A stretch of 64,000 nucleotides of DNA from Termitomyces sp. T153 (lineage: Eukaryota > Basidiomycota > Agaricomycetes > Agaricales > Lyophyllaceae). Under the pieces are notes generated by a model. The model was not told the DNA's origin. It saw only the letters and a list, made by a program, of their open reading frames with translations, and made no database searches. Each line of letters starts with the position of its first letter. Positions within the stretch are counted from its first letter, which is position 1. Of this stretch, positions 233 through 52,510 are shown piece after piece. The position numbers were made by a program, and so were the translations under genes. The stretch spans positions 1 to 64,000 of the forward strand of contig JACKQL020000012.1 in NCBI GenBank assembly GCA_018296165.2, given 5' to 3'.

Positions 233-3200
233 TTAGGAAGACCCTTGTTCTCTAGCTGCCTGACGATCAGCATATCTTTTTCGTGCTTCCATAATGCCAT
301 TGCCAGCAACTTTGATTGGTGCAAAATCACTGCTCTTTGTATTAGCCTCAAATGCACGCTGCAACATATTGCGAACACTTGCTGCAGGGCCACTTTCTGC
401 AGATACATCTGACCCCTTAGCCTTCTTGTTGGTCTTCTTACTTGTGCTCTGAGTCTTATCAGGTGCTAATGCATGATCTTAGAATATGCATTGTGTAAAT
501 AATAAGATCATCTTACTAGGAGATGACACCCGCTTTCTCTTGACTGGTCCTTCAGACATGGAAGATTTGCCTTTAGCAGCTAGCAGATTGCAATGAATTT
601 GAGCCAACACTAGAAAATATCTCATTGCATACCAGCTGTAATCATTAAGGCTGACATGACTACATTTTTGAAATCTTAGTTTCTTTCCTCTGCAGATAAT
701 AAGAATGACATACCTTCCTCTGCAGACTTGTTAGAAACCTCTTGTTGTTGTGATTCTTCCTCCTCATCTTCTGCCTCAGATCCTTTGTCTTCTTGCTCAC
801 TGTTTGCCTGTTCTCCATCATTATTTTCACTGCCATCCAAATCTTCTATATCTTGATCATTCTCTGTATCTTGCTCCTGTTCATCAGCTGTACCAGATCC
901 ATCTTCTGATTCCAGATCCTCTTCAGTTTCTGAGTCATGCTCTTCAATTTCCTTGACTTTTCCCTTGCCTATTAAGATGTTAAATAAGGATCCAAGGTAT
1001 AAATAATATCCCTGACTGATAGAAGCATTCTGAGGCACTGCTTTAGATGGAGCAAATGTTGGTGGACGACGAAAAATCTTCTCAGGCTTTCTTGGCTTCA
1101 ACAATGCTTGCTGGCGCTTCATACGAACACCTTCAAGTCGAACCAAGTCAGGGTTGACATCATGTTCACTGCGGTTTAATAGTGCCATGTTTTCTGGTGA
1201 ATGCCATTCAGCAAGCTCTTCAGTCGTAGGAAAGACTGAATAATCATGCAGCACTTCCAGCTGCTCTGCAAGTCGTTTCTTGTTTTCATAGCTGAGAGGA
1301 ACGTTATAGTCATATTGGTCCTGATAAATGTACTTTGTGGAATGTTCCAGTTGTTCCAATATAACCTGAAAAGATGTGTCTTAGTGTTTGACATGAGCAG
1401 ATAATAAGACGCACATTATGCAGATCCTCAAGCACTCTTTGCACTGGTTTCTTCAAAGTTTTGACTTGGCTGTCAGTCTTGGGATCTGTTGCTATACAGT
1501 GAAAGAGAGGGCTCTTCATGAAAATGTCATGGATACTGCGAAGTGCATGGTTGGCACTAGTCACTTGAGATTCAACAGACCGCATTGAATGATAGTTTGT
1601 GATATCGTCAATAAGCTCCTGTGTGAGGCTGTCTTCTCCATTGTCTTCTCCTTCTGCATAGGCCTTGGGAGGAGCTATATCATACCAACGACTCCAACCC
1701 TTTACTTCATCCAAGATCATTTGCACTTTTGGATTGGCAAGATAGACTGTATCCCAACCCTCATAAATGTTGCGCCTGTCCTCCCCATCACCATCATCAT
1801 CTGAATCACAAAGCCCAATAAGAGCATAAGGAATATGTGCAGCTATCCAGAAAGAGCTAGCCAGTTGTCGAAGTTTGTTGGTCCGATTTTTGTGGCCACT
1901 TTTTATTTCAGGCATCTCTTGCCACTTGAAAATAGTTGTCTGCATAGCTTGCTCCAACAACCATGGCTCTGTGTGGACACACTTCTTTGGATTGTGAGAT
2001 TCAAGATGAGAATATGCATCGGCAAGGAGCTCTTCATCACCCTTGTCCAAAACAAGAATCAAAACATCAACAATGCGATTCATGCCTTGTAGGACAGGAT
2101 CATTGTTAGGTTGACCTTTGAGCTTGGGAACTTTATACAGATGAGGTGGTGCATTGATATGCAAGGGATGATTGGCTATATTGTGAGCCCGAATATCCTC
2201 CAGGCCAGACAGCCTAAAGCGGAATAGAGTGGCAAGCCATTTGTTGATAGCCATTTGAAAGTCCATAGTATGGTCCTCAGGATGCTCAGAAAAATAGAGC
2301 TCTTTGAGAATTGAATAGACAGTAGGAGTGCCTGGACTGTAAGTGGTTTGACCTAGCATATGATGAATCATAGGTTCATAGTGACCAAGAATCTGTGGTA
2401 TTAAGAAATCTTAGAATCATCTCAGAGCAGATAATAAGAACACACCATAATCATTGATTCTTCATGTATAGCCATGTGATCGCAAATTGGTACAATAAAA
2501 TCAGTTATAGGGAGTGGATGGGCTGTGTCGTAGTTGGGATAAAAGAGACTATGGCCAATCTGTCCATAAGTGAGCCACTTGAGCTTGCCAGGAATTTGTG
2601 CAATGATGTTTTTAGCAGAGGAATCATTTGCAAATTGGAGTTGAGCATCCTGAATCCACTTGGTAACCTCTTCAAAGAGTATGTCGGTGTAGAGTGTATA
2701 GGTTTCAGCATATTTGGCACGCATATTGTCATCCATTTGATCACTTTTGAATCCAAATAGATTGAGCCCAACATTCTGCCAGGCTGTGTCAGCAGTTTTC
2801 AGTGCTGTATAAAAGGCATCGTCGAAAATGTCAAAGCGAGTCTGCTTTGAATTGAATGCCAATTGATTGAATGCCCAGAGTTTTTTTCGAACTTCATTAT
2901 GTGCACTGTGGGAAATAGGATTGGCAAAGTATGCCATAGCATCTTCACCTGTATCTGGAAAGACTGTCATGGAGTGATCAGAAAACAGAATTTCAAAGGT
3001 GAGGGCCATCCAGTGCATATATGTTATGGCATAGGCACTTGATCCACGCCTCCAACGATTGAGAGCTGTGATGGTGAATGGCATATCCCTATGGAAATAG
3101 CTGTTCAAGCAGAGGCGAGAGTAGGCATAGGTGAGATGTGTGGAGCTTAGAGCCTTTCGGATGCGTTGGCCCTTGGAATCATTCTGCTCAACAAGTGAAT

Positions 3201-4371
3201 TGAGAATCTTTGTGATGTTTCCAGAGTTGACACCATGCTGTCCATTGAGTGCATCGAAAAACATAGTGAGGGTGTTTTGCACGGTTTCTTCAACTTGGAA
3301 AATCAGCTTGTTACTAGCCAGTTCAGTCTTGATATGAATGGCATTGGGATGAGCATTGATTTTGTCTGGATTAGAAATCTTAGTGTCTGCATAATGAAGC
3401 TAATAAGATAGGAAGAATCCCACCGAGATCCAGAATTTTAGCAACCCAAGTGACTTGTTGTAGCTCCTTCTCCAAAGCTTCAAGCTCTTTGATCAATGGT
3501 TCACGAGATCTAGCATTTTTTCCTTTTTCATCCCAATTGTTGATTTTCTGGCTAAGATCATAATAGGCCTTGAGCTTGTCTTGGTAGACAAAAGTGCGCA
3601 ACAGTTCCAATCGATGTCCCCCATTTCCTAAAACAGGAAATAGTTCTTTCTCTGCAGCAGTTGCATCCACAAAAGCTTTTCCACGCCATTCTGGTAAAAA
3701 CTCGATTGTCCTAATTGCACTAGTGTCAAACGTAAGGCACTGGGTGTTGAGAATTTTGGGACTAATCAGAATCAGGATAGCGTTGACAAGGTCATGGTTC
3801 TGAAGGTCTCTTCCAAAGTTGGTACTTTCCCAGAGGCCTTTGAGATCAGTGTACTTCTGTGGACGAGTATTGATGACAGCTCTGCGAAGTTCAGCTGTGA
3901 TTCCAAGGCCGTTGTCGCTCAGAGCAGGCCAATTAACATAACCCAGAACAGCAGCATTAATAGCATCATGAAGGAGTTGGCCTTTCTTGGCTTCCTTGAG
4001 AGTTGCTTGAGCAGCTTCGTCAGCTTTGACCAGCTGAGAATGGGCCTTTTGATAGGCCCTTGGTCCCTTAAAAAAATATAAGTTCAGATGGAAACATTAG
4101 TTAGTAACTGATAGACTACCTGAATTCTTGCATTTTTAACATTCTTGAGACTGCCAATGATATTTGTTGTCTAAATGAGATCTTAGAAACTGCTCTGGTC
4201 ATTTAATAAGATAGTTCTTACCTTTGATGATGACTGGCAAAATAGAAAAACAATCAAGACATGTAATGCAGATATCAATTCAGACTTACTCCGGTAGTGT
4301 TCTGATCATGTCTTATTATTAGCAATTGTAGATTATAAGATTGAAACAAACAGATGCACCTTGGGAGGCAT
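233..4371 (-). CDS. Unrecognised 1177-aa protein, left paralogue of the pair flanking the recombinase-helicase gene
   Basis: I do not recognise the family. Spliced by hand the gene has 12 exons: 4360-4371, 4290-4301, 4222-4233, 4120-4170, 3424-4066, 2446-3365, 1415-2392, 1039-1365, 714-968, 633-659, 516-579 and 233-465. They sum to 3534 nt, an exact multiple of three with no internal stop. The start ATG gives MPPK, followed by two 12-nt micro-exons (NTTG, SSSK). The 643-nt exon is exactly the same length as its counterpart in the right paralogue, and the next two exons differ from theirs by only 6 and 9 nt. Shared blocks include PVLGNGGHR, FHRDMPF and WHSPENM. Residues about 986-1070 are a dense Asp/Glu tail, followed by basic stretches (VKRKRV, KKTNKKAK) that look like nuclear signals. 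No enzyme motif is visible. Most introns carry the TCTTA...TAAGA palindrome. A nuclear, chromatin- or DNA-associated role is only a guess. Confidence 0.85.
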
Positions 4372-4770: not shown

Positions 4771-7700
4771 TTACACCCTGGTTCCAGCATACCATAGAAA
4801 AAGAGCAGACATGTTAGTTGAATGGCCAACAATGGGAGTGTTATTGATCCACTTGGTAAAGTGATCCAGAGTTGGCCATTTGGTACTAAAATGGTCTTCA
4901 GCCTTAGTCCTAAGATTTGGATCAAAATAAATGCCAAAAGCAATGGGTGCTAAGACATCCCTGGAATTAGGATTGCATCCTTGAGCCTTTGGAAGGATAT
5001 CTCCATGCAAAGAGTCATCAAGTTGAGGAATGTGACAAAACCAACACACTGCAGGGTGAATGCGAGGATGATAGCGAATTTGCCGTTGCCATGCTCGGAA
5101 TACTGCAACATCAGCATCTGGCAGGCTTGTATCAAGTGTATTGCAAGCAGTGATGGAATGCTTTGCAGAGTCAACACCACAAAGATCACAAAAAGCACAA
5201 GTGTCTTGAAATAGTGCAAGTGCTTCGTGCAATTGCTGAATATACAATGCTCCAGTTTGAGAACGTTCCACACGATTCTTCTTGGCCAGAGTCATTTGAG
5301 TATGAAAAGAAGCTGATGCATCTTCAAACTTGCGCTTAAGTTGAGGTCTACAAATTTGAATAAATACTATCAAACCCAGGTTTTATTATCTGCACTCACT
5401 GTGTAGATGGCAGAGCTCTATTGATAAAATCCACAGGTCTAGAAATGCCTTTCCTCTCTAAAGACTTCATCTCAGGCCTGTCAATGGATATTAATCTTAT
5501 AAAACAATAATGAAGTTTTTAAGACTGACTCTGAGCAAGCTGAAATCGATCTCAAAATAGACATAGATCGAGTGATTGAGGAAGTGCCACCAGATAATAT
5601 GTTGGGCTGCTCAGTGATAGCCTTAGAGAGATTAAACTCTTGGACATGTCTAGACACTAAGGCAGTAGTGCTTGATGGCTCACTTCTTCCTACATTTCTG
5701 TATAAATGTGTTAGAAGTGTTCATAATTGTAAAATAATATAGAACACACTGTACAATTGCAGGCACCAAGCATCGAGAACATCTTGGACTATTTTCAGTG
5801 ACACCACAAGACATTCCCTCCTTATCAGTGAAAGAAGTAATGCTATAGCGAATGCAATGATTTGAGCGATATATCATTGTCCACATAGCCTTGTATCCAC
5901 GGTGATCAATACCATCTTTAGGAGGATGCTGATATTTGCCCATGTTCGATTTATACCGTGGAATGATGACACATTTTGCCCATTGTCCATCTCTACCTGC
6001 TCGGCCCACTTCTTGAGTAAAACCAATCATTTGTTTGGGTGTGCCAGCATGAATCACAAGTCGAACATTGGGATAGTCATTGCCAGCTCCAAATGCATTG
6101 GTGCAGACCATAACTTTGTGGATGCCTTGAATCCATCGATGATATATGGCCTCACGCTTTTGATCAGCCATGCTTTCTCCTCCTTCATAAAAATCACATC
6201 CAAGGGCCTCAACAATGGGTCGCCCCTCTTCTTCCTTCAAAGAGACAAAAATGAGAGCTCTATCACTCTGTGTGAATGTCTTCATTTCTGCATGCAGTGT
6301 TTCTAAGACAGCTGCACATGTTGCCTCGTGTGACCTAGTTGGTGAATGCATAATGTATTCCAATTCGGGTCGGTCGGTAGACATTCTGATTCCAATCCAG
6401 TCATGTGTTAGGCCAAAGGCTTTAGCAAGGGCCTTTTCACTAGCAATTGGAATTGTTGCAGACAGAACTACAAGCTGCACTGGAATTGTGCGAACATCTT
6501 CCAAGTGCTGGAGAGCTGGCCGAAAATCATTATCTGTAAGAGCCAGCTGGCCTTCATCAAAGATAAAACGATTGACTTTCTTGGTATTGTGTATTCTGGC
6601 AACTGTTTGGCGCCACCCAGGTGTACGAGATCGATCAGCAGAGACCAGAATCAAAGCATGATTGCCTGTAATTATTTCTTCTTCTGCTCCAGTATAATGT
6701 TCAAAGGGAATCTTCATTTGTTTAAGTTTCCGCTTATAGTCACTGATTAGTGACTTGAGAGGAAGAATGACCACAGTGACTTGGCCCCCTTCTATCAAGG
6801 CTGGAATGATTGCCAGCATTGTTTTTCCAGCTCCTGTTCGCAAAAAGGCACAAACATCTTGTTTGAGTTGGAGCACTGCTATAACTGCATGCTTTTGTTC
6901 AGGAGATGACCATGTTGCTTGTGGATTATGGAGTGCAGCACAAAGTCCTGCCAGAGCAGCTGACTCAAGATCTATTGAAACAATTTTTAACATCATTGTG
7001 TTGAAAGGAAAATTCATCACATACTGCCAGTCAAATCATATTTTTCAATTTGTGGAGATGAAATATCCTGTGTGATGATTTCTACTGGACCATCACTTGA
7101 TAATGCATCATGAATACTGGCTTTGTCATCAGTAACATAGCTGAGGTCACCATCTGAGATATAAGAGCTCTCAGAAGGAGCTGGATTAGAACTGGAGATG
7201 TTGAATTCTGAGATGAATTCTCTGTTGAGCAGTGGAGATGATGTCAAAGCAAGGCTATTTTGACATGTTTGAGTATTTCTGTCCTGTCCATTTTGACTGG
7301 CATATAACTTCAATGCATCCTGGATTTCAACTTGCAAATTTGTCCCTGCAATAGAACAAAGCTTAATCTTATAATATGAAAGCAAAGATAATAAGATCTC
7401 ACTGAAATTAGTTAAAGCTTGCTCAATTGCAGTGGTCACTACATGTTGAACAGCATTGGGTATCCCTTGTAACACTTGTTCAGTGATAGCACTGGTCATT
7501 TCAGCAGTGATTTTTGTAGCAGATAATGTGGGAGCAATTAAAGATCCCTTGCTTGAAGGTGAAATAGCACCAGCTTGAACTAGTTTGTCAAAGTGGATTG
7601 CTTGGCAATCATAATAGGCCAGTCCAAGACCTCCAGGTACAGCACGAGAGATGATTTGCCAATCTGTACTGGCATCCAAATATAATGGCAGTACATCTTC

Positions 7701-10487
7701 AGCCACTCCAGAGAGTGCATCTGCACTGAGGCCATAAATGCGGTTTTCAGTGCGACGGCTATGTGTTGCTTGCTGAGCTGAGATGGTGTCTTGCTCATCA
7801 ATTTCCATTAGATCATCAAGTCCAGAGCATAGCTTGCGTCGAAAAGCAATTGAGACTTGTCTCCATGCCTGCAATCCAAGCTTTACACCAATGGTCTCCT
7901 CTGTATAACTTTGCATAATACGAGAGACCTCAGTGGAAGTGAAGAGCTTGCCATTGTTCACAAATAAATGATCACGATAGAGTTGACGTATGTCTGGGCT
8001 ATCATGATGGCATATAAATGCAGCCAACTGAGCAAAGGGACGAGCAATAGCAAGATTTTGAATAATGAGATCAGAGGTGACTCCATCAAATGCATGAGGA
8101 ATGAGCTTTTCTGAGCCGGTGAGAGCTGTTCCTTTGTGATAAGTAACAAGCATGGCCAAGTATTTGCCAAAAGCCACACAATTCCGATGAGTTGATGTGG
8201 CAATATTTGTATAAGTCATTGCTGTGAGCTCTGTACCTCGACCTGGTGCACCACCCAGCATCTGTCCACGCACTAGCAAAAGGCCTTCAAATTGAGCATA
8301 TTGATATAACCAGGAGCGAAGAATCATTTTATTCCATGTTAGAGTTCCATCTTCATGTTCAACAGCAATGAAGCGTTTGCGAAGCAGAGGATCCTTCAGA
8401 ATGGCAGTGATTAGACTGTCACAATGCTGGTTGAAGGGATTGCGAGGGTCTGTGATGAAGGAATAGCCAACAGCAGTATTGGTTAAATCATCTGCTAGAT
8501 CATTGTACTGGGCATGTAAGTTCAGGCCACATAAGACATTTTGTTGCCAAGCCTTGATCAAAACATGTTCAATCTTGACAAAGGTGCATTGGATGTTGCT
8601 AAATGTGACTTGACAGCCTTCATAAAGCATTGTTTGATAGTGCTTGCGATCAAGCCACCAAACACGAGGCAAAGCCATTGTTGATTCAGCAATAGCAGTT
8701 GCACGATGTTGCAGAGATCGCAAGGAGTTGAAGGTGGAATCATATTTTTCTGTGAACCATGGTGCAAGCAATTCCATCTGGAATTGAAAGGAAGTTGTAG
8801 GATCTAGTTTGACTTTGCGATAGATTTCTATCATGAAGGTGTTTCGCATACAATATTCAAAGCGAGCAATTGGGCCAGTGGTATATTTTGGATGCTTGAA
8901 TGATCCATCAGGCTGCAGCATCATCAATGCTAGACAGACAATGGTGGGATCAGGGAACAGATTATCTTGATTTGGTGTCCAAGTGTGTGTCCATAAAGCA
9001 ATCAAAATTCGCAGCACCTTCATAGATAGTGCAAATGCATGTGGATCAGAAATGGCATCTCGAAGATCATTCAAGCGCTTGTCAGCTTCAGAGGAAAGTG
9101 GAAAGACAAGGCTTGTGGATGGTCGCAATAGCATGGCAAGCAATTGAACAACTGGAGTGGTATATTCCTTCATTCTGTGAATATGATCTTGATGGCAATG
9201 GAATGGCTGGTTGTTGATACCACTGTATGGCACGATCTTAGTAAATGACTAGAACAGAAAATAAGATACCTACTCTTTAGCAGGATCTGGAGAATTTAAA
9301 CGTTGGAGAATAAGCTCTGGAATGAAGCTGAACATGTCTTCAGACCCAAGAAATAAACTGTGTACAGCTTCCACCAGTCTTGGAAATTCAGTGGTCTTGA
9401 CTGGAGCCACCAGAGCAAGCAACTCATCAATTGAATGATTCTTGATGAGCTCTGACCAACGATTGGATTTGAGCCAAGGACTTAAAAGTCTAGGATCAAG
9501 TCTGTGGCCAGTTGGCTTGCCATCTAAAGCTTCCATCCTGCTTCGCAATTCATGAATAATTATTTGGGCTGGCTGCTTGATTGGTTGCAATGCAGGAGTA
9601 ATTGGAAAGAATGATCGATGCAAGGTGTGATTCAAGCGCTGAGCATAAACTTGGGTCCATGTAGTTGGAACTGGCATTGTGTTATGCTCCATATTATGGT
9701 GTTTGAGCATGCTAGATTGAGCACCATAAACTTTATTGCATAAGTTGCATTGCCAGGCTGAATGCACAGATAAACCCAGAATTTCATCCCTGATAGCAGT
9801 ATCCATAAGAGGAAGTTGGGGTGAGAGCATGAGCAGGGCTAGATCCTCATCTACTAGCTTTTGGTCAAGTCGTATTCCACAATCACCATGCTGGTTTTTA
9901 ATGTGCTCTACCATATGGCCAGGTGCCAATGCAATAGAGCAAGTGAGACAGATTAGGCAAGCAATATTGGTGTTATATGCAATGCCAAATTTTTGAAGAT
10001 AGTTGGGATGAAGTAGTTGTGATTTGACTTGTCTGTCATTTTTAGTTTTCTAATAAAAAGGTATTAGTAACAAAATGAGTAGTCAAATGTTGAGTATACC
10101 TGACAGTCACTAGAATCATCATTAAATCCAGTATCAGTCATTCCTGGTGGTTGATTCTGATGATCTTAATAAATTCAAGAGCATATAATAAGACATAGAG
10201 CATACCACATGTCCCAGCCAGTGGCACTGAGAACTGTGAACATGTTTTTTGAGACTAAGAGTAGAGTTGTATTGGTGGCCATTAGGAAACTTGGAGCATA
10301 TGCAGAAGAAATTATTTGTTTCAGAATCTCGATGCAATGTCACAGTAGTGTTGAGATATGTGACCTCTACAGAGTCAACACAAGTTCGAGTATGAGCATC
10401 ACGAGCTGATTTTGCTTGAGCATAGGTCTCTGCTTCAAAAGACTGTTGACAAGTTGTGCAAGAAGCAAAAGCAGTGGTTTGAGCCAT
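4771..10487 (-). CDS. Zinc-finger / tyrosine-recombinase-like / RecQ-helicase fusion protein (1766 aa)
   Basis: Nine exons: 10206-10487, 10100-10156, 9274-10049, 7403-9222, 7025-7345, 5750-6971, 5530-5697, 5400-5477 and 4771-5347; they sum to 5301 nt, in frame. The N-terminus has a C2HC-like motif (residues 10-36), a CxxC...H...H motif (about 144-168, resembling OrsD/DUF3505) and a classical C2H2 finger (about 214-236). The middle looks like a tyrosine recombinase: Arg in GRGTEL (about 700), Arg in QAWRQ (about 826), His in THSRRT (about 859) and Tyr in RIYG (about 868). The C-terminal half is a superfamily-2 RecQ-type helicase with GAGKT (about 1132), DEGQ in place of DEAH (about 1224), LSAT (about 1254) and QEVGRAGRDG (about 1405). 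The last exon holds Cys pairs (CAFCDLC, CWFC), probably zinc-binding. Fungal telomere-linked helicases share the OrsD plus RecQ design. The recombinase reading is my inference from motif order; no structure or alignment was run. Confidence 0.85.
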
Positions 10488-10817: not shown

Positions 10818-13800
10818 CTATGGAGAAGAAGCCATCTCAATATCCTTGTCCAATGCTGCACCTCCAATAGAGCTTTGAGAAGCAGAGACCACTTTCTTGG
10901 TTGAAATTGGCATTGCTGCTCCTTTGCTACTACCACTGTCACCCCCACTATGATTCAACTCAAAGCTCTTCTGAAGCATATCACAAACACCTTCAGGACC
11001 CCTGGGTTTCTTGGCATTGGCTGGTCCATGTTCATGTTGTTCAGCTGCTCAAAATGAATCTTATAAAAACATCAGAACAGATAATAAGACAAGCATACTA
11101 GATGTTGAACGACTCCGCTTGCCCTTGACTGATGAACTTTTTTGAAGAGCTGAAGATGTCCCTGAAGCTTCCTCTGAAAATGGTCTTAGAATCTGCCAGG
11201 TCACTTTATAAGACTGAGTAGCATACCTCTTGGTTCCAATCCACCTTGATCAACCACATCATCATTAGAAGTCTTGGTCTTCCCCTTGCCCTTGCTAGAG
11301 CGTGCTAAGGTATAATCATAAGCCAGCCAAGATCTTTTTGTTACTAAAACACTTACATGCAGACCTTATAGCAGCAACAGTTGGTGTACGAACAAAGGAC
11401 TTCTCTGCATGTTTTAATTTCTCCTGGGCAGCCATACGTTTTTCACGAGCACGTTCCAAGCGTAGCACATCACGATCCTCCTCTTTTTCAGTCCGGTTCA
11501 AAAGCTCCATGTTCTCTGGTGAATGCCAAGCAATCATTTCTTGATTAGTCGGAATCCAAGGAAATTCAGGCAAGGGTAACATCTGCTTGTGAATCATTTC
11601 AACATTTTCAGAGGTGAGTGGATTGTTGAAATTATAGTCATGTTGCAAAAGATGCTTGGCTCCATTTTGCAACTCTTCAAATGATGCCTGTAGACAAAAC
11701 TATCTTAGAATCTGACCAAGTCAAATTCTAAGACTCACCTGATGAAGGTCTTCCAAAATACGTAAAAATGGCCTTTTTAATGTCTTCACTGGCTTGTTGG
11801 TCTTTGGATCATTCACAATGCAGTGATAGAGTGGATTTTTCAAAAAGAGCTCGAGCAATGTTTGATGTGTAGTATTGACACTCTTCACTTGAGATTCCAG
11901 TGAGCGCATAGAGAGGAACTGCTCAACATCTTCAATTAATCCAGCCTTGAGGATGTCAGTTGAGTTTCCTTCAGCTGCATATTGATCAGCAGGGCCAATG
12001 CAGTACCAAGCTGGCCAATCCTTCAAGTCATCCACAATGCATCTGACTCGGGGATTCTTCAAATATGGAGTATCCCCTCCTTGATAAATGTTGTCAGTGT
12101 CATCAAGTTCATCATCACTATCCAAGTCAATGCAACCATAGAGGGCATGAGCACCAATCCAAAAGAATCGAACCAAGTGCCGCAATTTGTTGGTTCGATT
12201 TTTATTGCTCTTCTCCATCCCTGGGATTTTGGTCCACTGATAGCAAGTTCTCTGCAGAATATTCTCCAAGATGGCACCATCTGTAGCTTGTTCATTCTCT
12301 TCATCAGATCCAAGAGTTGCATAGCAATCCTCCAACTCATCACTGTCAACACCATCTATAATACCAGCCAGGATAGGAATCATCTCTTCCATTGCTTCAA
12401 GATGAGGATCACCATTGGGAGGACCAGTGAGCAATGGAACGACCTTGTTGAAAAGGTATGGTGGAGCATTTTTCTCCTTTGGATGGTTGGCAATGTTGTA
12501 ACGACGAATGTCTTCTAAACCAGAATGACGAAATCGGAAAAGAGTGCCTAGCCAATTGTTGATGGCTATCTGGACCTTTCTAGTATCAGCTCTGGGATTT
12601 TGCTTCTTGTAGGCAGACCACAATACTGAGTAGACTGTTGCCGATCCACTAGTATATGTGGTTTGACTAAGCATTGCCTGGACCAGAGGTTCATAAAGAC
12701 CAGCAATCTGTCCAGTCATTGAGCATCTTAGAATATGACCAGAGCAGATTATAAGATCTCACCATAATCATAGATTCTTCATGCTCAGTCATGGCATCAC
12801 AAACAGACATGATGAATTCTGCTGTGACCACAGGATGAGCTGTATAATACTTCGGATAAAACAATTGACCTCCAAGTTGGGCCATTGTAAGCCAATTCAA
12901 CTTGTTGGGAATTGCATTGATGATCTTCTGAGCCACTGGATCATTGGCAAACTTAGCATGAGCAGATTTGATCCAGCTATCCAAGTTGTCCAAAAGGGAG
13001 GTCATATAAACATCAAAGACCTCCTTCCCATAGTTGGCCATGAAATCATCATCGAGCTGGTCACGATTATAGCCAAAAGAGTCCAATTTGGTCCGATAAA
13101 TGCTAGATGCATTCTTCAAGAGGCAGTAGAATTTGTCATCCAATATATCGAATCGGGTTTCTTTCTTAGAAAAGTCAAGACCATCAAATACCCAGAGTTT
13201 CCCAAGCAGCTTGCGTCTCATTTGTATGAATTCGTCAGAACCAAAATCTTCAGAACTTGGAAGTGTGGAAAAGTCAAGGAGAGAATGGGCAGAAAATAGG
13301 CATTCAAAAGTGAGGGCCATCCATTGGAAATATACGATGGCATAGGCACTGGAAGCACGACGCCAGCGAGTCAATGCAGTGACTGAAAAAGGCATGTCAC
13401 GATGAAAATAGCTGTTAAAGCATAGGCGCGAATAAGCATAGACAAGGTCAACAGAGGACAAAGCTTTGATGATACGCCGATCCTTGCTTTCAGTCTGAAT
13501 TGTGAGAGATGACAGAATCCTGTTTATGTTGTCTGCATCAACCACATCCTGTTGATTGAGTACGTCGAAAAACATTGAGAGTGTGTTTTGCGCAGTTTCC
13601 TGGACTTGAAAGATCAACTTGTTGCTGGCCAACTCTGCCTTGATTAAAGCAGCATCTTCATGTGCATTGATCATGTCTAATAAATTGTATCTTAGTTTTT
13701 ACTCTGAGCATTTTATAAGATGAAAATATCGCACCCAAATCTAGTACCTTTGCTACCCAAGTCACTTCTCGAAGTTCCTTCTTCAAATTCTCCAGCTCCT

Positions 13801-15775
13801 CCACCAAGGGCTGTCTAGAGCGAGTGTTCTTGCCAGTGTCATCAATTTTTGCGATCTGTGCAGTGATATCTTTGTACACCTCAAGTTTGGGTGAATACTG
13901 GAAAGTGCGCAACAGATCTAGGCGGTGACCACCATTGCCCAGAACAGGCATCTGCATTTTCTGCTCCTCAGTTGCATCTGCTAGTGTGAGTCCCTTCCAG
14001 CCTGGCAAGAATTCAATCATCTGCATATCTCTGGTATTGAAGGTCAGAGATTCCATTTTGATAGTCTGCTTGCTGACAAGAACATATATAGCATGTTCCA
14101 CAGAATGATTGTGAAGGTCTTGTCCATTGTTAAGAGCTGTCCACATGTCCTTGAGATCTTTATAATGTTGGGGGCGGCTGTTAATGAGAGCTCTTTGAAG
14201 CTGTGCAATCAATCCAAAGCCAAGATCACAGAGTGCAGGCCAGTAACAGTAGCCCATGACAGCTGCCAAGATAATATCATGAAAGGTTTGTCGTTCCTTC
14301 ACAGAATCCAAAGCAACTGCAGTCAGCTCCTCTGCCTCATCCAGTTTTCTTTGAGCCTTTTTAAGAGCTTTAGGAATCTAAAAAGCTAGCTGAATAGAAC
14401 ATATAACAGGTTTAACAATTTCTTCCAACCTGTTTATCCAGATTTGTGATGCTTCCAATTGTGGTTTTTCTGGGCTAAAAGTATTTCTTAGAATCTGCTC
14501 TGAGCAGTTTATAAGATAAGCAGAAAATACCTTGCTAGCTCCGGAATCACTAGTTTTAGTAGACTGACAATGGATCTTAGAATCTGCTCTGAGCAGTTTA
14601 TAAGATAAGCAGAAAATACCTTGCTAGCTCCGGAATCAGTGGCCTTGATGGACTGACAATAGATCTTAGAATCTGCTCTGGACAGTTTCTAAGATAGGTA
14701 GAAAATACCTTGCTGGTGCCGGAATCACTGGCTTTGATGGACTGACAATGGATCTTAGAATCTGCTCTGAGCAGTTTATAAGATAAGCAGAAAATACCTT
14801 GCTGGTGCCAGAATCACTGGCTTTGGTAGACTGACAATGGATCTTAGAATCTGCTATGAGCAGTTTATAAGATCAGTAGAAAATACCTTGCTGGTTCCAG
14901 AATCAGTGGCCTTGGTAGACTGACAATGGATCTTAGAATCTGCTCTGAGCAGTTTATAAGATAAGTAGAAAATACCTTGCTGGTGCCAGAATCACTGGCT
15001 TTGATGGACTGACAATGGATCTTAGAATCTGCTCTGAGCAGTTTATAAGATAAGCAGAAAATACCTTGCTAGCTCCGGAATCAGTGGCCTTGATGGACTG
15101 ACAATAGATCTTAGAATCTGCTCTGGACAGTTTCTAAGATAGGTAGAAAATACCTTGCTGGTGCCGGAATCACTGGCTTTAATGGACTGACAATGGATCT
15201 TAGAATCTGCTCTGAGCAGTTTATAAGATAAGCAGAAAATACCTTGCTGGTGCCGGAAACAGTGGCCTTGGTAGTAGACTGACAATGGATCTTAGAATCT
15301 GCTCTGAGCAGTTTATAAGATAAGTAGAAAATACCTTGCTGGTGCCGGAATCACTGGCTTTGGTAGACTGACAATAGATCTTAGAATCTGCTCTGAGCAG
15401 TTTGTAAGATAGGTAGAAAATACCTTGCTAGTGCCGGAATCACTGGCTTTGGTAGACTGACAATGTATCTTAGAATCTACTCTGAGCAGTTTATAAGATA
15501 AGCAGAAAATACCTTGCTGATTCCAGAATCACTGGCTTTAGTAGACTGACAATGGATCTTAGAATCTGCTCTGAGCAGTTTATAAGATAAGCAGAAAATA
15601 CCTTGCTAGCTCCGGAATCAGTGGCCTTGGTAGACTGACAATGGATCTTAGAATCTGCTCTGAGCAGTTTCTAAGATAAGTGGAAAATACCTTGGAGGAT
15701 GACTAAAAGAAGGAAAATGTGGAAATCAGCAAACAATCACTTTAAAAAGTAAATGGACAGTACTTGAGATGCCAT
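10818..15775 (-). CDS. Unrecognised 1246-aa protein, right paralogue, carrying a 13-fold mini-exon repeat
   Basis: Paralogue of the gene at 233-4371, family unknown. I resolve 23 exons: 15764-15775 (MASQ), 15691-15702 (SSSK), thirteen mini-exons between 14531 and 15634, then 14430-14474, 13735-14377, 12763-13676, 11739-12707, 11357-11687, 11227-11304, 11099-11173 and 10818-11047. They sum to 3741 nt with no stop. Residues 9-152 are a Ser/Thr/Lys repeat (STKASDSGTSK and variants), one 11-residue unit per mini-exon except a single 12-residue unit; this part is absent from the left paralogue. The body shares ESMIMV, TWVAK and FHRDMPFS blocks with that gene. The acidic tail of the left copy is missing here. 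The C-terminus is basic (VKGKRSRS, AKKPRG) and keeps the MLQKSFE/MLQRAFE block. The repeat is probably disordered. Function unknown. Confidence 0.85.
14475..15690 (-). repeat. Tandem array of 14 near-identical introns and 13 mini-exons (89-bp unit)
   Basis: Each unit is a 56-bp GT-AG intron plus a 33-bp exon. One exon is 36 bp (near 15273), still in frame. On the plus strand every intron shows ATCTTA...CTGCTC...GAGCAG...TAAGAT or a close variant, a near-perfect palindrome. On the coding strand introns start GTATTTTC and end TTGTCAG, except the last (14475-14530), which ends CTTTTAG. Unit starts (GATCTTAG) fall at 14573, 14662, 14751, 14840, 14929, 15018, 15107, 15196, 15288, 15377, 15466, 15555 and 15644. 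Introns look more uniform than exons, in which Ser/Thr, Ile/Thr and Ala/Thr/Ile swaps occur. The left paralogue has one single intron at the same place (4171-4221). Confidence 0.95.
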
Positions 15776-16549
15776 TGATCTTATCGCTTATGTAATCAAG
15801 AACAGATGATTCCTTTTAAGGATGGTAGTGGTTGAATGTTAAGAAGACAATTGAAACTCAGCTGAAATTTGATCTAGTGACTTTAGGGCAGGTCAGTAAT
15901 TTGATCATGTGATCTTCAATGTGAACCAAAGGAAGCAAACCTTGAGGAATAGCAAAAGAATTAAAATGATTCTATCTTATAATTTGACTTGGGCAAATAA
16001 TAAGACTGAGCTATTAGAACAGATTAGTGATCAGATAATGACTGATGCAAACAATAATAAGAATAAGTTGTAAGATCCATAAAATGTGTATTAATTGTTG
16101 GTTTTATGAATTTTAAGCAGACAATTACTAGTAGGATTAAGCTTTCACTTTGATAAAAGTGGGACACATTCCAAAATATTACTTGTCTGAAGACTGTGAG
16201 TTATTGTCAAGTTGCTTAAATGATTCATGCAATGCTTAGTACTGCTCATCCAAATATACAGACAAGTAAGAAGGGACCAAAAGCAGCTGAGAGCCATAGA
16301 ATTTTTGAAAGGGGGCCCAATCAGATTTGAACACAGAAATCACTAAGTTTGTAGGAAAGATGTCTATCATGCTGTCTTGAAAACTAACCATTTGAAATCT
16401 GAAGCTTAAAGCTAGAATCTAATTGCTGGGAACTTTGACAATTCTGGATAATTTCATAAGCTCAGCCCCAGCTATGAGCCAAGTTTCTAGTAATACAGAC
16501 AATCCACCTTCTAATAGCCTAAAGCAGAGTGGCAAGAGCAGTCCAGGTC
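15776..16549. other. Upstream region of the right paralogue, no gene seen
   Basis: AT-rich DNA with the two shared promoter motifs in the first 125 bp. One more hairpin-like TCTTATAATTTGACT...ATAATAAGA occurs near 15974-16006, outside any gene I can model. I see no supported coding sequence. Confidence 0.5.
15788..15798 (-). promoter_or_regulatory. Shared start-proximal motif TTATGTAATCA, right paralogue
   Basis: Lies 13 bp upstream of the ATG at 15775. The second shared motif, TTTAGGGCAGGTCAGT, follows at 15882-15897, at nearly the same spacing as in the left paralogue. Confidence 0.45.
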
Positions 16550-18115
16550 AATGTTATCTTAGAAAATGTCTAGGTTAGATTCTAAGTCTGGACCAATGCC
16601 ATCTCAGAAAAGGACCAGATAAGGTCCTAAGCTGTGAGGATCATTGGGATCAACTATCTTGAAAAAGAACCAAGTCAGGTCCTGAGCTATGAGGATTGCT
16701 GGAATTGCTCAGCCAAGATGATCCCTCAAGAGCAGTCCAGACTAATGCTATCTTAGAAAATGATCTGGTCAGATTCTAAGTCTAGGCCAATACCATCTTG
16801 AAAATGACTAGGTAAGATCCGAAGAGTGGGTATCACTGGGATCGCTCAGCCAAGATGATTCCTCAAAAGCAGTCCAGACCAATGCTATCTTAGAAGATGA
16901 CCAGGTTAGATTCTAAGACTAGGCTAAAAAAGGACTGGATAAGGTCTCTAAACTAGGGATCGCTGGGATTGCTTAGTCAAAATGATCCCTGAAGAGCAGT
17001 CCAGGCCAATGCTATCTTAGAAAATAACCAGGTCAGATTCTAAGTCAAGGATGGCTGGGATTGCTCAGCAACTCCTGGCAATCCCATAGCAATCCCTTAG
17101 TGTGAGCCCTCCTGAAGCCCAAAAACGGTAGCAAGAGCAGGCCGAGCCAATTTTATCTTAGAAAATGACTAGGTAAGATCCTAAGAGTGGGTATCGCTAG
17201 GATCGGTCAGCCAAGATGATCCCTCAAAAGCAGTCCCGACCAATGCTATCTTAGAAAATGACCAGATTAGATTCTAAGACTAGGCTAAAAAAGGACTGGA
17301 TAACGTCCCTAAACTAGGGATCGCTGGGATCGCTCAGTCAAAATGATCCCTCAAAAGCAGTCCAGACCAATGCTATCTTAGAAAATGACCAGATTAGATT
17401 CTAAGACTAGGCTAAAAAAGAACTGTATAACGTCCCTAAACTGGGGATCACTGGGATCGCTCAGCCAAGATGATCCCTCAAAAGCAGTCCTGACCAATGC
17501 TATCCTAGAAAATAACCAGGTCAGATTCTAAGTCAAGGATGGCTGGGATCACTCAGCGACTCCTGGCAATCCCACAGCAATTCCTTAAAGTGAGCCCTCC
17601 TGGAGCCCAAAAACAGTGGCAAGGGCAGTCCAAGCCAATTTTATCTTAGAAAATAACCAAGTAAGATCCTAAGAGTGGGTATCGCCAAGATGATCCCTCA
17701 AGAGCAGTCCAGACCAATGCTATCTTAGAAAATAACCAGGTCAGATTCAAAGTCAAGGATGGCTGGGATTGCTCAGCAACTCCTGGCAATCCCACAGCAA
17801 TCCCTTATCTAGAGCCCAAAAAGGGTGGCAAAGGCAGTCCAAGCCAATTTTATCTTAGAAAATAACCAAGTAAGATCCTAAGAGTGGGTATCGCTGGGAT
17901 CGCTCAGCCAAGATGATCCCTCAAAAGCAGTCCAGGCCAATGCTATCTTAGAAAATGACCAGGTCAGATTCTAAGTCTAGGATGGCTGGGATCGCTCAGC
18001 GACTCCTGGCGATCCCACAGCAATCCCTCAAAGTGAGCCCTCCTGGAGCCCAAAAATGGTGGCAAGACCAGGCCAAGCCAATTTTATCTTAGAAAATGAC
18101 CAGATGAGATCCTAA
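16550..18115. repeat. Non-coding complex satellite built around the TCTTAG hairpin
   Basis: About 14 copies of a hairpin of the form CTTAGAA...GACC.GGTC...TTCTAAG recur, at roughly 16556, 16751, 16882, 17013, 17153, 17247, 17377, 17501, 17641, 17721, 17852, 17944 and 18088. They are separated by conserved linkers such as GATGATCCCTCAAAAGCAGTC, or by a longer linker beginning GTGAGCCCTCCTG near 17100, 17590 and 18030. Unit length is irregular (about 90-140 bp) within larger blocks of roughly 240-480 bp. No open frame of note runs through. The stem is a relative of the intron palindromes in the adjacent genes. Confidence 0.85.
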
Positions 18116-18185
18116 GAGTGGGTATCGCCGGGATCGCGGGAAGGATCGCTACCACAGTGGGTATTCCAGCGATGTATATAACTAG

Positions 18186-18790: not shown

Positions 18791-20499
18791 ACACTAAACA
18801 CTGGCACTATTCTCGTTGTTTCGATTCTTTCTGTCTCAACACATGAATTACTGTTGATCGCGTCAATATTTTAATATCAAGTCAACACGTATTAAACTCC
18901 TTCTCATCCTCGATTAACTCAACGTTGAACGAGATGTCGAGTTTTGAGGGCTTCGTACGATTTTGACCAGTTAGTGCTTGTAGTGTTACAATTATAATAT
19001 CCTGAGGACCACCTACTGCCACTGTTTTTCTTTTATAGTGAGAGGACCTGGAGTGGGCCGTAATTGGGTGGAAGGTTAAGTGGAAGGATCTGTCGTAAAT
19101 AGCAGTGGTTCTTATAAGCATGTGGAGATTCTGAATGCTAATAAGAGTATGAACATTCCTGAACACCGCTGAACCGGTACAGGACGACACAGGGGGTTTC
19201 AATGCGCACCGATCGCAGTTTCCGACGTTTCAAATCCAAGCAACGAGTACAGGTGTTTTGGGATGTTTGGCCATCGAGGGTATCAAACTGTTGTTGCGGA
19301 ATTCATGGAGGTCTCCGGACGATCCAGATGAATGTGCGCCAGGGGCTGTCAGGAGTGACATGCGAGAGGCTAGCCTCAATCGCTTTGATTACGTATTGAA
19401 TCAATGTTCGCGTATGAGAGTTCAAGCAAGGAGGTATAAACTCTGTGAGATCCGATGTAGGATCTCAAGGAGAGGAACGTCGACCAAAAAGATACGCACG
19501 AGTAGACATCACTGCGTTCGACGGCTGCAGACGTATTTATCAATTCATGGCGAAGTCGGTCCAGACCGGTATTCGAAATGAGTCGTTATAATTGATGGGC
19601 TGTGTTATGGGCAGCTTCACGCAAGTAGCAACGGCTCCCGCGCCTCCACGCGTTAGTTTGTTATGAAGCTGTGAGAACTCACTACTGTTGCCAAAGCAGC
19701 GGTTGGCAAGAGAACACGTAGAAATAGCTCTTGTTACAGATTAAAAAACCCGGTTTTTTAAACTTTCAAAAACATTAATTCGCTCTGCTAACAAGAATCG
19801 AGAGAACTCAGAATACGGTATCGAATTGTCCTGACGATACATGTATACGCAAAGCTATCGATAACATGAGCGCACAAGGGAGCAACTTGAATGTTGCTCG
19901 TGTCTGGTTCGGAGTCCGTTCCGTTGAGCCAAATAAAGCCAAGCCGAAACAAGATTCCAATCAAATTTGTTCTCAACACACAGCCTTTGACATTATCACG
20001 GTAGAAACAGTACATTTCCTGGTATTCGATTGACTAAAGCCAAGTACGTTGCTTCCATGACGTTTATTTGCAAGTAATCTGTTGATTTCGGCTGGGACTT
20101 AGCGGACGGAGATTATAGTGGGCCTTCCTCAAGTTCGCCCGCCGGTGTTTAGAGGCGAAGACCATTTAAATGTGCGCAAGTTCGGATAGTTTATCAAATA
20201 AGAATCTACTGGGACCCTGAGTAAGGATCTGGGCGCCTTTACTCCAACTTCTTTGCAGGAGATCCAGGTACGAATGCCACGAGTTTTCTCGGATCAAAGA
20301 GGTTCTATGACATAACCTCGCTGGAATTCTCTTACAAACCGCATTCTTCGCTCATGAGATTGCGATAATACTATTGACACCGCTTTTGGAAGCATTTTTC
20401 TCAGTGTTTGACTCAGAATATGTGGCTCACGAAACTTATTTATAAGGATTTGCTCTGTTGTCTACCACACTCACTGGCTCTTGTTTTTGCGCCATTGTG
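18791..20499. other. Intergenic region upstream of the polyketide synthase
   Basis: Here the base composition changes from CpG-poor, repeat-rich DNA to normal CpG-containing DNA. Short frames exist (for example 19258-19581) but none shows a recognisable domain or a convincing exon structure. The last few hundred bases presumably hold the promoter of the synthase gene; I see no clear TATA element. Confidence 0.5.
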
Positions 20500-23400
20500 A
20501 TGATCACGCGCGACTCCCTCGACCTATACTTGCCTATCTTTGCGGGTCAGGGAACATCTGCCGCAACCGCCCCCAAAACTCGTGAGACAGCTTTATCCGA
20601 TGCCTCTTCATCGTCCGGGACACTACTCCTCACAGCGTGCTTTGAGGCATTCCACCACGAGCTGTCTTATTTACCAGCTGGCGACTTCTCCGTGCTCGAT
20701 ATTGACCGGGCAGACTTCTCGTTACCTAAAGATTTGCTGTCGACTCCCGAACAGCGTTACGAACACAACGCTGTCGTTTCAGGATCTACGATTTTCCTCA
20801 TCCAAATTTTACGATACCTCGTGTTCGCAGAGACAACGCGTATCCCGATCAACTCTGTCACACCATTCAGCGATATCCTAAAAGGCAATATCGAACACGA
20901 ATTGGGGATCATCGGCTTTTCTTCAGGCATACTTCCCGCCTGTGTTGTTGCTACGTCGTTCTCAACCTTGAGTTACGTCACAAATGCAGTTGAAGCCTAT
21001 CGTCTGGCAATCTGGGTCGGGATTCGTTCACATCTGTACAGGGTGCAAACTCTAAATGCTGCTTCACTCGATTCGAATACCGATCTACCCTGGAGCTTGG
21101 TGCTTATAGGAATTACCAAAGTCGATGCAGAGAATGCTCTCGCGACATATAACAAGGTACGAAGTTAGAAGTAACTCAGCTCACATGCTAATAGTATTTT
21201 GCCGTTTTACTCAAACTTAGGGAAATGACGAGGCTAAGCTTTACCTGACCGCAATCATGAACGACACGTGTGTCACCATATCAGGTCGCCCAGACATTCT
21301 TTCCGATTTCTCCACTTTCCTCGCAACAAACGTAAAAGTAATTATTCATAAGACATCTCTCGGCACTCTGTATCATTCACCCATCCATGCCAACTCTACT
21401 CGCGATCAGGTTTTACGCGATGTCGTAGCCAGGAGAATTCGCTTTCCCGAGTTCTCTGATATCCAAGTACCCATCCGATCAACATTCACTGGCGATGCCA
21501 TCACCAAAAACGAGACTTCGGGATCTCTCTTAGAACTTGTGGTCGACCTGCTCCTCGTTCATCCAGTGAATTGGAACATTATGGTTGATCACCTCATCAA
21601 GTCGCTCCCTCAGGATACTCATATCCGACTTCTTAATGTAGGACCTGGCCTCGGCTTGACTCGAAGTATGGAACGAGTACTTCCTCGAGGTCAAGTGTCG
21701 ATATTCGACCTGAGTACAGCCAGCATACAGTCACATCCCCAACCTCCGCCAAAACAAGAACCTATCGCTATTATCGGGATGGCTGTGAATATGCCTGGAG
21801 CTCCGAACGTTTCCAAACTCTGGGAAGTTCTCGAGCATGGCATCAATACGGTCTCTGAGGTAAGTGCTTCCTTTCTTCTTAAGTAGCCTTTTTCTGAGGC
21901 GATTCTTGAGATTCCTGGGTGTCGATTCAGGATCTCGGACTACCAAGAAAGCAAGAACTCCCAACGATATATGAAAGCGCGTACTGGTAATTTCATCGAA
22001 GGTGCCGATGAATTCGACAACAAGTAAGTTGACGCTTGAGCGTTCATACTATGCTGAATTTTGCTCCAGATTTTTCAAGATTAGTCCTCGTGAGGCGAAA
22101 AACATGGATCCTCAGCAACGTATTCTATTACACACTGCGTATGAGGCGCTCGAAGACTCAGGATACGTTCCGAACTCGACGCCAACAAACCGACCCGAAA
22201 GCTTTGGTTGCTATATTGGTGTTTCCACTCACGATTACCTACAAAATTTGCGTGACAATATTGATGTTTATTATAGTCCTGGTAAGCCTTAATGTATCCG
22301 GTTGTTGGTTTCAATGTACCGATCATCTTCAGGTACGCTGAAAGCTTTCTTAAGCGGGCGAATATCATATGCGATGCAACTCAGCGGCCCATCTATCGTC
22401 GTAGATACGGCCTGCTCCTCTTCAAATGTTGCTCTTTATCACGGTGCACGAGCTTTGATGAATAGAGATTGCAATGCCGCTTTGGTCGGCGGCATCAACA
22501 TTATCACTAGTCCTGATGTAAGCTATTTTCGACACCTTGTCCATTGCAGACATTGCTTATCCTAGAAATGGCTATAGATGTTCCTAGGACTTGACCGAGG
22601 ACATTTTCTGAGTCCTACAGGACAATGTAAATCATTTGACGCAGCAGCTGACGGTTACTCGCGAGGAGAAGGTTGTGGAGTCTTCGTGCTGAAACGCCTG
22701 TCTGACGCTGTTGCCGACAATGATCGTATACTTGGTGTAATCCGTGGTATCGAAGTCAATCAGAGTGGACGCGCCCACTCAATTACCCATCCACATGCAC
22801 CGACTCAGGCCGCTCTTTTTCGACGCGTCTTGAAGAACTCGAACATTGATCCCAACCGAGTTAACGTTATCGAGGCTCATGGCACGGGTACTCAAGCAGG
22901 TGATCCTCATGAACTAGAGAGTATCAGAAGCGTTTTTTCCGCTCAACGAACTGTCAATAACCCGCTGCATATCACTTCCATCAAGGCAAACATTGGCCAT
23001 CTCGAGGCGGCCTCAGGATCCGCCGGTCTTGCGAAACTCCTTCTTATGTTTCAGCACCAGACGATTCCTCGTCAAATATCCCTGTATACGCTCAATCCAC
23101 GGATAACACCCCTCGAAAATGACCACACCATCATTGACTCTGTGTCCGTTCCCTGGCATCCTGCCCCTAACGGTTCAACAAGGATCGCGATGCTCAATAA
23201 CTTTGGAGCTGCAGGATCTAATTCAGCGTTACTAGTCGAGGAACACCAAAAGCCTGTCGTCACCTCCAATTTTGGGGAAACACATTTTCTGTTTGGGTTC
23301 TCAGCGAAAACTGACTCAGCGCTCGAAAGTCTTCGCTCAAGATACCTGGACTTTCTCGAGAATCCTGGAGCATCCAGTCTTGCGGATATCGCATACACAA

Positions 23401-26400: not shown

Positions 26401-27314
26401 CTTTGCGGCTGGAAGTCAACCCTATTTCAGTACAATCATCGAACAGCAATCGGCTTCCTTTGTTCTTTATCCATGATGGCAGTGGCCTTGTCAACTACTA
26501 CGAACGCCTTCCTCCGCTGGATCGACCAATCTGGGCAATACACAACCCCAATTTCTCTACCAGTCAGCCCTGGAATAGCATTTCCGAGATGGCGAGAACG
26601 TACGCAAAGTTGATCGCTAATCTTATCATAGGCCCCATAATAGTTGGAGGTAAGCATCTGACGTGTCAATTCAAATATAGAAATTACATTGTTCTCCTGA
26701 CAGGATGGTCATTTGGCGGGGTGGCCGCATATGAAGTCGCTCGACAGCTTGAACTTCTCGGTAGAACAACGCAAGGTATTCTCTTGATCGATGCACCTAA
26801 TCCTGTCGGACACGTTCCCCTATCCGACTCTATAATCAACACAGTGCTTCATCTTCAGCGTCGAAGCATCATCAGCTCTGAGATCGGAAGGCTAGTGAAG
26901 GCACAATTCTCAATGAATTCGCGACTACTTGGCAATTACAAGCCTGAGCCGTTTATGCACGATTCTCCGCACCTAATCATGCTTCGTTCAAAAGAAGGGT
27001 TCAAGCCACCTCATGTCCAGGTCCCCGCTTGGTTATCGGATCGTACACGGCCCGAGGCAGCGATTTCGGGGTGGCAGACGCTATCGAGGGGCCACGTAGA
27101 TATTCTTGACATACCCGGACATCATTTTGAACCATTCCATCGAAACAATGCAAGTGATTTGTTATTCAACTGCATAACCTCATGCATATCTGACGACGTC
27201 AATAGATTGAAACTACATCCCTGCGAATTTCGCAAGCATGTGCTCGTCTGGAGCAGCTATAGATCCCTCTCGAAAGCTATTCGAGCTCTGGAACAAGTTA
27301 CTTACTATTTATAA
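20500..27314 (+). CDS. Non-reducing polyketide synthase, SAT-KS-AT-PT-ACP-ACP-TE (orsellinic-acid-synthase type)
   Basis: Eight exons: 20500-21156, 21221-21859, 21911-22023, 22070-22281, 22333-22517, 22578-23806, 23858-26649 and 26704-27314; 6438 nt, 2145 aa, in frame. The start ATG lies about 10 residues before LPIFAGQG, the usual N-terminal SAT motif. Domains in order: SAT, with GFSSG at the usual nucleophile site; KS from about residue 400, with DTACSSS, EAHGTGT and [12 protein letters not shown] from about 917, with FSGQGGQY and GHSLGEY (rebuilt across an intron); product template, with [12 protein letters not shown] and HPVFSD; two carrier domains, LGVDSL (about 1678) and LGLDSL (about 1784); and thioesterase, with GWSFGG and GHHF. 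Such enzymes release simple aromatic acids such as orsellinic acid from acetyl/malonyl units in the cytosol. The product here is inferred from domain order only. Confidence 0.95.
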
Positions 27315-51784: not shown

Positions 51785-52510
51785 TTTCAGCTAGAGTGCA
51801 TGTTGAGGGGAGTAGGGTGTGGAGTGAAGGGACTGAGAGTGCAGGGTGAGAGGAGTGGGATACAGAGTGCAGGGTGAGGGGTGGGATACAGATTGCAGGG
51901 TGATGAAGGGACTTGGGGTGCAGGGTGAGAGGAGTAGGATATAGGGTGGAGGGTGAGGAGAGTCAGTGGAGAATGAGGAGACTCAGGGTGGTGGGATACA
52001 GAGTGCAGGGTGATGAAGGGACTTGGGGTGCAGGGTGAGAGAGTAGGATACAGGGTAGTAAAGGGAGAGTCAGAGTGGAGGGTGAAGAGACTCAGGGTGG
52101 AGGGTACAAAGTGAGGGGACTCAGGATGCAGGGTGAATAGACTTAGAGTGCAGGATAAAAGGACTGGGATACAGAGTGCAGGGTGAACAAACTCATAGTG
52201 AAGGGTAAGAGGACTGGGATACAGAGTGCAGGGTGAACAGCCTCAGAGTGAAGGGTAAGAGGACTGGAATACAGAGTGCAGGGTGAACAGACTCAGAGTG
52301 AAGGGTACAGGGTGAGAGAACTCAGAATAGAGGGTGAACAGACTCAGGTTGGAGGGTAAACAGACTCAGAGTGCAGGGTAAGAGGACTGGGATACAGAGT
52401 GCAGAGTGAACAGACTTAGGGTGAAGAAACTAGGGTGCAGGGTGCAGGGTGAGAGGACTGAGATATAGGGTGCAGAGAGAGGAAAACTTAGGGAGAGGAA
52501 AACTTATAGA
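51785..52510 (+). repeat. G-rich degenerate minisatellite (GACTCAGAGTGCAGGGTGA type)
   Basis: About 20 degenerate copies of a unit containing GGGATACAGAGTGCAGGGTG and GACTCAGAGTGAAGGGT lie in direct orientation, with a period near 35-45 bp. The plus strand is strongly G-rich and C-poor. Confidence 0.85.

Follow-up and report, generated by a model that had tools for sequence, protein, structure and literature searches.

A Predicted Tandem Array of Mini-Exons and Near-Identical Introns in a Gene of Termitomyces sp. T153

Introduction

Tandemly repeated exons were reportedly the subject of a 1988 paper on Schistosoma mansoni. The SmPoMuc genes of the same species are described as carrying a 27-bp exon 2 that is tandemly repeated together with its flanking introns, in up to ~20 copies, in the 5′ region; the intronic parts are more than 94% identical, and the genes form a multigene family whose members recombine (PMC2576457). 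Near-identical small introns between similar-sized exons are described for the spidroin genes of Argiope MaSp2 and flagelliform silk, where the MaSp2 introns are homogenized within the gene to a mean similarity of 97.6% (PMC9779670). The schistosome micro-exon genes (MEG) have many short exons, mostly multiples of three (PMC10526429), and titin PEVK is another case of short repetitive exons (PMC6469411). Fungal introner-like elements and symmetrical sister introns are sequence-related, internally symmetrical introns found at several gene positions (PMC8469720; PMC4457414).

Here, we describe an exon-intron array in the first 64,000 nt of a contig of Termitomyces sp. T153 (JACKQL020000012.1, called C12 below); this whole stretch is referred to as the window. 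An earlier note on this DNA held that no gene of such a design had been described, a statement that has to be withdrawn, as SmPoMuc (PMC2576457) and the MaSp2 and flagelliform silk genes (PMC9779670) precede it. As in SmPoMuc, a short exon of a length divisible by three is repeated with an intron and encodes a repeated N-terminal segment (PMC2576457). However, the SmPoMuc unit is ~1 kb long, with long introns and microsatellites, compared with 89 nt in the window array, and SmPoMuc has a signal peptide and has expression and splice variants documented by cDNA (PMC2576457), whereas the splicing of the present array is predicted from sequence. The likeness drawn here is one of architecture. The spidroin genes share with the window array the near-identical small introns between exons of similar size; they differ in encoding animal silk with poly-A ensemble repeats and, in some cases, in alternating two intron types (PMC9779670). 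The array introns have a palindromic core, and the spidroin account, as far as it is cited here, mentions none (PMC9779670).

The MEG, which share the many short exons of 3n length, have introns of ~0.1-5 kb and encode secreted proteins, with no uniform tandem array described in the source cited (PMC10526429), whereas the introns of the present gene are 51-61 nt long and its N-terminus, MASQSSSKSTK, is without a hydrophobic stretch by inspection. Compared with introner-like elements, the related introns found here are restricted, in the strict form of their core, to one subtelomeric gene set instead of being genome-wide, and the array copies spread together with their exons. SP7-like effectors, in which a single conserved intron precedes the first repeat (PMC11333574), were considered as a counterpart and set aside. 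No fungal precedent for repeated exon-intron units was found in the open-licence literature. New here are a probable fungal case, a unit of 89 nt, a relic copy that bridges the unit to its source, and a palindromic intron family. The locus appears to provide a compact fungal version of an architecture known from animals, and a relic copy hints at how the array may have begun.

Results and Discussion

Gene Models and Array Architecture

The array is part of a minus-strand gene, gene2, modelled at 10818..15775 as 23 exons encoding 1245 aa from frame, splice signals and the paralogue. In the product, a repeated N-terminal tail rich in Ser, Thr and Lys precedes a conserved body. Residues 165-1100 match P0001 (42% identity, 99% coverage) and P0002 (42%, 88%), both of Termitomyces sp. 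T159_Od127, which were the only two proteins found for the body. For the repeat segment (residues 1-168), no homologue was found at E up to 0.001 among 7992 candidates scored. A SidE_PDE domain was considered for gene2 and rejected, the Pfam match of one gene2 piece being weak (E 0.0047) and under its cut-off, and NCBIfam gave no match for the two gene2 pieces searched. The A1 profile gave nothing credible against solved structures (best E 0.19), and the AlphaFold2 model of P0002, made with 4 sequences, had a mean pLDDT of 38.8.

Repeat finding and a splice-site parse of the minus strand divide the stretch 14475..15690 into 14 introns and 13 mini-exons. Tandem Repeats Finder places a single array of 89-nt period at 14486-15694, with 13.6 copies, 90% matches and a score of 1887, and the unit is a head-to-tail repeat that holds both an exon and a predicted intron. 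In the predicted splicing, 14 of 14 introns are exactly 56 nt long, GT-AG and in phase 0; all 14 start with GTATTTTC, and 13 end with TTGTCAG, the last one ending with CTTTTAG. Twelve mini-exons are 33 nt long and one, at 15278-15243 (minus strand), is 36 nt long, so that every length is a multiple of three and all are in frame. The array is flanked on the minus strand directly upstream by a 12-nt exon, SSSK (15691..15702), which is also kept in the left paralogue, and directly downstream by the exon PRKTTIGSITNLDKQ (14430..14474).

The mean unit-to-unit identity is 90.7% over the 13 units, with the extra codon of the 36-nt exon excluded. The difference per site is 5.6% in the introns and 15.7% in the exons, indicating that the introns are the more uniform part. 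Unit 7 is identical to unit 12, and unit 6 differs from unit 11 at a single site; these near-identical pairs are a sign of a possible block duplication inside the array.

These results bear out most of what the earlier note had said of the window, namely that near-identical introns separate in-frame mini-exons, that the 89-bp repeat is a splicing unit (each copy parses into a predicted GT-AG 56-nt intron and a 3n exon), that splicing is needed for the gene to close in frame (the spliced model being open for all 1245 aa), and that any skip of mini-exons preserves the frame, since all are 3n and all introns are in phase 0. The array shows how a coding repeat could expand or shrink by whole units without risk to the frame.

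The left paralogue, gene1, was modelled in part at 2446..4371 on the minus strand. As also claimed earlier, it has one intron (4221-4171) at the position of the array. The two genes start with MPPK|SSSK|TTNIIG (gene1) and MASQ|SSSK|[array]|PRKTTIG (gene2), and they have flanking exons and intron positions in common. The predicted gene2 introns outside the array are 51 to 61 nt long.

Copies of the Array in the Genome

The DNA of the same genome (72.4 Mb, 307 contigs, the window being the start of C12) was searched for copies, which gave 14 matches. The census of arrays comprises eight full-length, three truncated and two diverged relic copies. The expansion had been attributed to the window copy only; with 13 arrays in the genome, it is not a single case and belongs to the family of the right-hand paralogue.

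The full-length arrays are on C12, C81, C110, C123, C60 (two), C105 and C3. Those on C12, C81, C110 and C123 each lie 14474 bases from the contig end. Over 4216 bases, C123 is identical to the window, C81 and C110 differ from it by 1 base and C60a by 5 bases; some of these close copies may reflect haplotypes or duplicates made in assembly. The number of mini-exons per full array is 13 in the five C12-type copies, 13 in C105, 14 in C3a and 12 in C60b, and the number of units thus runs from 0 in gene1 through 2 in the C4 relic and 3 in the C1 relic to 12, 13 or 14 in the full arrays.

Several copies are damaged. The truncated arrays, one on C81 and two on C3, are 5′ fragments fused to satellite-like sequence. 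The second array on C60 (C60b or L008, C60:22182-23384, with exons of 33, 36, 54 and 75 nt) is of full length but lies in a truncated gene whose body matches the window to ~13492 and then passes into satellite sequence. In C105 (L006), a 1-base deletion in the body near window position 13957 breaks the frame relative to the window; it is either a sequencing error or a real mutation. In the C1 relic (L039, C1:2232501-2237500), the duplication takes in all of the 5′ block with the main exon that follows the array and stays in frame there, and the downstream exons have many stops. The C4 relic is frameshifted by inspection, with a protein match that is only piecemeal.

The truncated genes L008, L041 and L042 were all observed to break into one satellite sequence, ACTAGTTATATACATCGCC (in gene orientation). 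L041 and L042 are cut within the array, L008 within the body; the same satellite sequence borders the satellite near window position 18150.

Coding Character of the Mini-Exons

The mini-exons of the 13 arrays were collected as 117 copies from 12 loci. Their lengths are 33 nt (106 copies), 36 nt (9), 54 nt (one) and 75 nt (one), all multiples of three, and no stop codon occurs in the 117 mini-exons. The 54- and 75-nt exons are both in C60b and both contain internal 21-nt repeats, which account for their extra length and keep the change at 3n; as C60b is without its body, these two exons derive from a truncated gene. The open mini-exons of C1 and C4, both decayed downstream, may only be inherited.

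In the predicted frame, the subtelomeric 33-nt units (18 distinct ones) have a pN/pS of 0.20; the two remaining forward frames give 1.91 and 1.22. The reverse frames give 1.93, 0.33 and 2.42, the low value of 0.33 being that of the frame in which third positions fall on the forward ones. Heterozygosity is 0.269 at third positions and 0.079 at the other two (permutation p = 0.0037). Adding the C1 and C4 units (22 in all) gives a pN/pS of 0.35 (p = 0.025). The window array alone, with 11 distinct units, gives 0.17, compared with 2.35 and 0.96 in the other frames (p 0.007); the value is 0.18 when C3a is included (13 units) and 0.20 with C105 (14 units). Since the arrays exchange sequence, the 28 distinct mini-exons are not independent and the permutation p values are optimistic; the substitution figures are best taken as indications rather than as strict tests. 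Taken with the 3n lengths and the lack of stops, the low pN/pS in the predicted frame makes the mini-exons look coding.

These data bear on the possibility that the array is an expanding satellite without effect on any protein, in a subtelomeric gene family that is dying or silent. The relics on C1 and C4, the truncated copies on C81, C3 and C60 and the frame break in C105 are of the kind that such decay would leave, and the adjoining non-coding tandem repeats carry the same kind of palindrome as the array introns. However, a silent satellite would not be expected to show a codon-type substitution pattern, which is present even in the window array alone, or exon lengths that are only 3n, and the window gene is open over its whole length with homologues at 42%. 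We consider this explanation improbable.

Splicing of the Array

The reading that we regard as likely is that the array represents a coding minisatellite with an intron built into each unit; its length changes would occur in the DNA, and its introns are each predicted to be removed constitutively. It proceeds from direct observations: the architecture, the frame, the coding-type substitutions, the link of the C4 relic to the next exon and the differing unit number among copies. On this reading, gene2 would be expressed with all introns constitutively spliced, each 56-nt intron being removed individually by intron definition.

The distance from a donor to an acceptor in the array is 56 nt for the nearest pair and 145 nt for the next. 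As the donors and the acceptors are nearly the same throughout, the pairings are indistinguishable from sequence alone; the nearest acceptor of each donor is the right one and the sites are all alike, which makes intron definition probable. The array thus provides a natural test of splice-site pairing, with 14 near-identical donors and acceptors and 33-nt exons between them. A single retained intron, whose 56 nt are not a multiple of three, would shift the frame.

The earlier note had proposed combinatorial splicing, in which the mini-exons would be skipped in many patterns and one gene would yield a ladder of proteins. The phase-0, 3n mini-exons and near-uniform splice sites are compatible with this proposal, as any pairing keeps the frame; SmPoMuc transcripts are described as ranging from 1 to 100 repeats (PMC2576457), and numerous exon skips are annotated in Cryptococcus neoformans (PMC2219887). 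However, a skip would require an intron of at least 145 nt instead of 56 nt, intron definition is the mode presumed for fungi, and the alternative events reported for Ustilago maydis comprise 12/193 exon skips and 114/193 intron retentions (PMC2219887). With intron definition in fungi and this bias toward retention, the introns are expected to be removed one by one, and the differences in unit number are already visible at the DNA level. Skipping therefore appears less likely than constitutive removal, and we give the ladder of proteins little weight.

It is also conceivable that the array is removed as a block, as one intron of 1216 nt from 15690 to 14475, giving a short form as in the left paralogue. 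The frame would be kept, with SSSK joined to PRKTTIG, and the product would resemble that of gene1. However, 1216 nt far exceeds the other gene2 introns, and neither the conserved mini-exon frame nor the low pN/pS would be explained; block removal is thus considered very unlikely. Gene predictors are likely to overlook or misjoin mini-exons of this kind.

Origin of the Repeat

The C4 relic has the order of two mini-exons, STKATDASLSK and PTKITIGRLIK, followed by an exon starting with PTKNTIGSLK. Mini-exon 2 shares 23/33 nt with the exon downstream of it and likewise 23/33 nt with mini-exon 1, which in turn matches the representative array unit at 24/33 nt. When the representative array unit is compared directly, the match is weak with the window downstream exon (16/33, p 0.007) and not significant with gene1 (12/33, p 0.10), so that it is C4 that serves as the bridge between the mini-exon and the next exon. 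With C4 as the bridge, the unit probably began as an intron joined to the opening 33 nt of the exon behind it, and this opening stretch of the downstream exon (the C4 counterpart of 14430..14474) is the likely source of the repeat.

The coding minisatellite would accordingly have arisen in steps. As the initial step, an intron was most likely duplicated along with the opening 33 nt of the exon behind it, after which the duplicate exon would have diverged to STKASDSGTSK. The intron-exon unit would then have been amplified through unequal exchange in a recombining subtelomere, and such exchange would be the driver of changes in unit number. Each unit would add 11 residues to the Ser/Thr/Lys-rich N-terminal tail, presumably a flexible segment, and the length of the tail would be set mainly by the number of units in the DNA, with the frame kept.

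Palindromic Core of the Introns

The array introns contain a near-palindrome of ~31 nt, TCTTA-N21-TAAGA, exemplified on the minus strand by 14486..14516, with the same or nearly the same core in the others. The same kind of core is present, also on the minus strand, in two single-copy introns of gene2 (12708..12762 and 11688..11738) and in a copy upstream of gene2, outside the coding introns (15975..16005). Many palindromes of this kind occur in the non-coding tandem repeats at 16558..18116, which have periods of 127 and 223 bp. Overall, the core, 30-31 nt long, is found in single-copy introns of gene1 as well as gene2, at helicase-gene sites, in the stretch upstream of gene2 and in a large number of satellite units.

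In the first 18.2 kb of the window, TCTTA-N12-26-TAAGA occurs 38 times against 0.62 expected, with 14 of the 38 in the array; these cores are located in introns, an upstream region and a satellite. In window positions 18200-64000 (45.8 kb), it occurs 0 times against 0.64 expected. The strict form, TCTTATTAT-N13-17-TAAGAT, was searched in the whole genome, and all 58 matches are on nine contigs (C1, C3, C5, C12, C60, C81, C105, C110 and C123), eight of which have an array or relic; some of the strict matches on C5 are strings identical or nearly identical to gene1 introns. The reversed-pattern control for the strict core gave 0 matches in the whole genome. As the strict core is confined to the contigs of the module, the array introns belong, in terms of this strict form, to an intron family private to the module. 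Genome-wide introners are not supported as an explanation on the same grounds, together with the empty 45.8 kb beyond 18200.

A motif model trained on 10 non-array introns of gene1 and gene2 reached maxima of 41.0 in the array, 34.8 in the upstream and satellite stretch and 31.8 in the helicase region. The other 45.8 kb gave no score above 13.5, and 5 shuffles there went up to 18.3. Site 9236, which was located by its motif, is the one helicase-region site above the shuffles (max 13.5; p 0/2000); site 10163, 30 nt long, scores 8.7, and the site near 7366 is not prominent. In leave-one-out scoring, the intron interiors beat permuted ones in 10/10 introns (p 0.0015 or less), six of which are three homologous gene1/gene2 pairs. 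In the intron census, the motif is present in 18/22 introns, where the array is represented by 2 and where eight introns, four in the helicase gene and the last four of gene1, were found by looking around the motif. One of these eight, tlh_5510, starts with GC and is not trusted, and a helicase-gene intron near 10100-10050 without the motif was left out. At the positions placed by frame, splice signals and paralogue, the motif is present in 9/13 (array counted once).

An RNA hairpin was considered as a general reason for the palindrome and is not supported, as only 2/22 folded introns have z below -2. In a separate folding of four array introns, two have z below -2 (-3.45 and -2.75) and two do not, so that most introns show ordinary folding stability, and in the array intron variants a pair is often broken without compensation by inspection.

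A further proposal is that the ~31-nt palindrome is private to the subtelomeric module, supplied most of the intron cores of the module (those of gene1 and gene2, and less surely those of the helicase gene) and, as a hotspot of recombination or slippage, drove the amplification of both the satellite and the exon-intron unit. We regard this as possible but doubtful. If it were true, an invading intron would have become the engine of protein repeat expansion; the data give hints of introns as a possible unit of expansion in recombining subtelomeres.

Chromosomal Setting

Between the two paralogues, at 5680..10049 on the minus strand, lies the region of a RecQ-type helicase gene with some copies of the core. 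The gene matches Bloom helicase at E 7.6e-25 and has DEAD and Helicase_C domains; its match to the RecQ family model is under the curated cut-off. The gene presumably resembles the telomere-linked helicases. The module appears to be subtelomeric, judging from the contig ends, the helicase and the distal satellite. Four tandem copies of TTAGGG do not occur anywhere in the assembly. The satellite lies distal to the module on C60 and C3 and has a period of 802-803 bp on C60 (C60:1-3000).

A polyketide synthase gene adjoins the subtelomeric module at window positions 20446-27314. Against a Termitomyces sp. 'cryptogamus' protein it shows 87% identity with 52% of the query covered, and against one from Lyophyllum shimeji 59% identity with 96% covered. 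Like the homologues of the gene2 body, these matches agree with an origin in Termitomyces (Lyophyllaceae, Agaricales). More minisatellites, with periods of 20 to 110 bp, are present at window positions 51793-52384.
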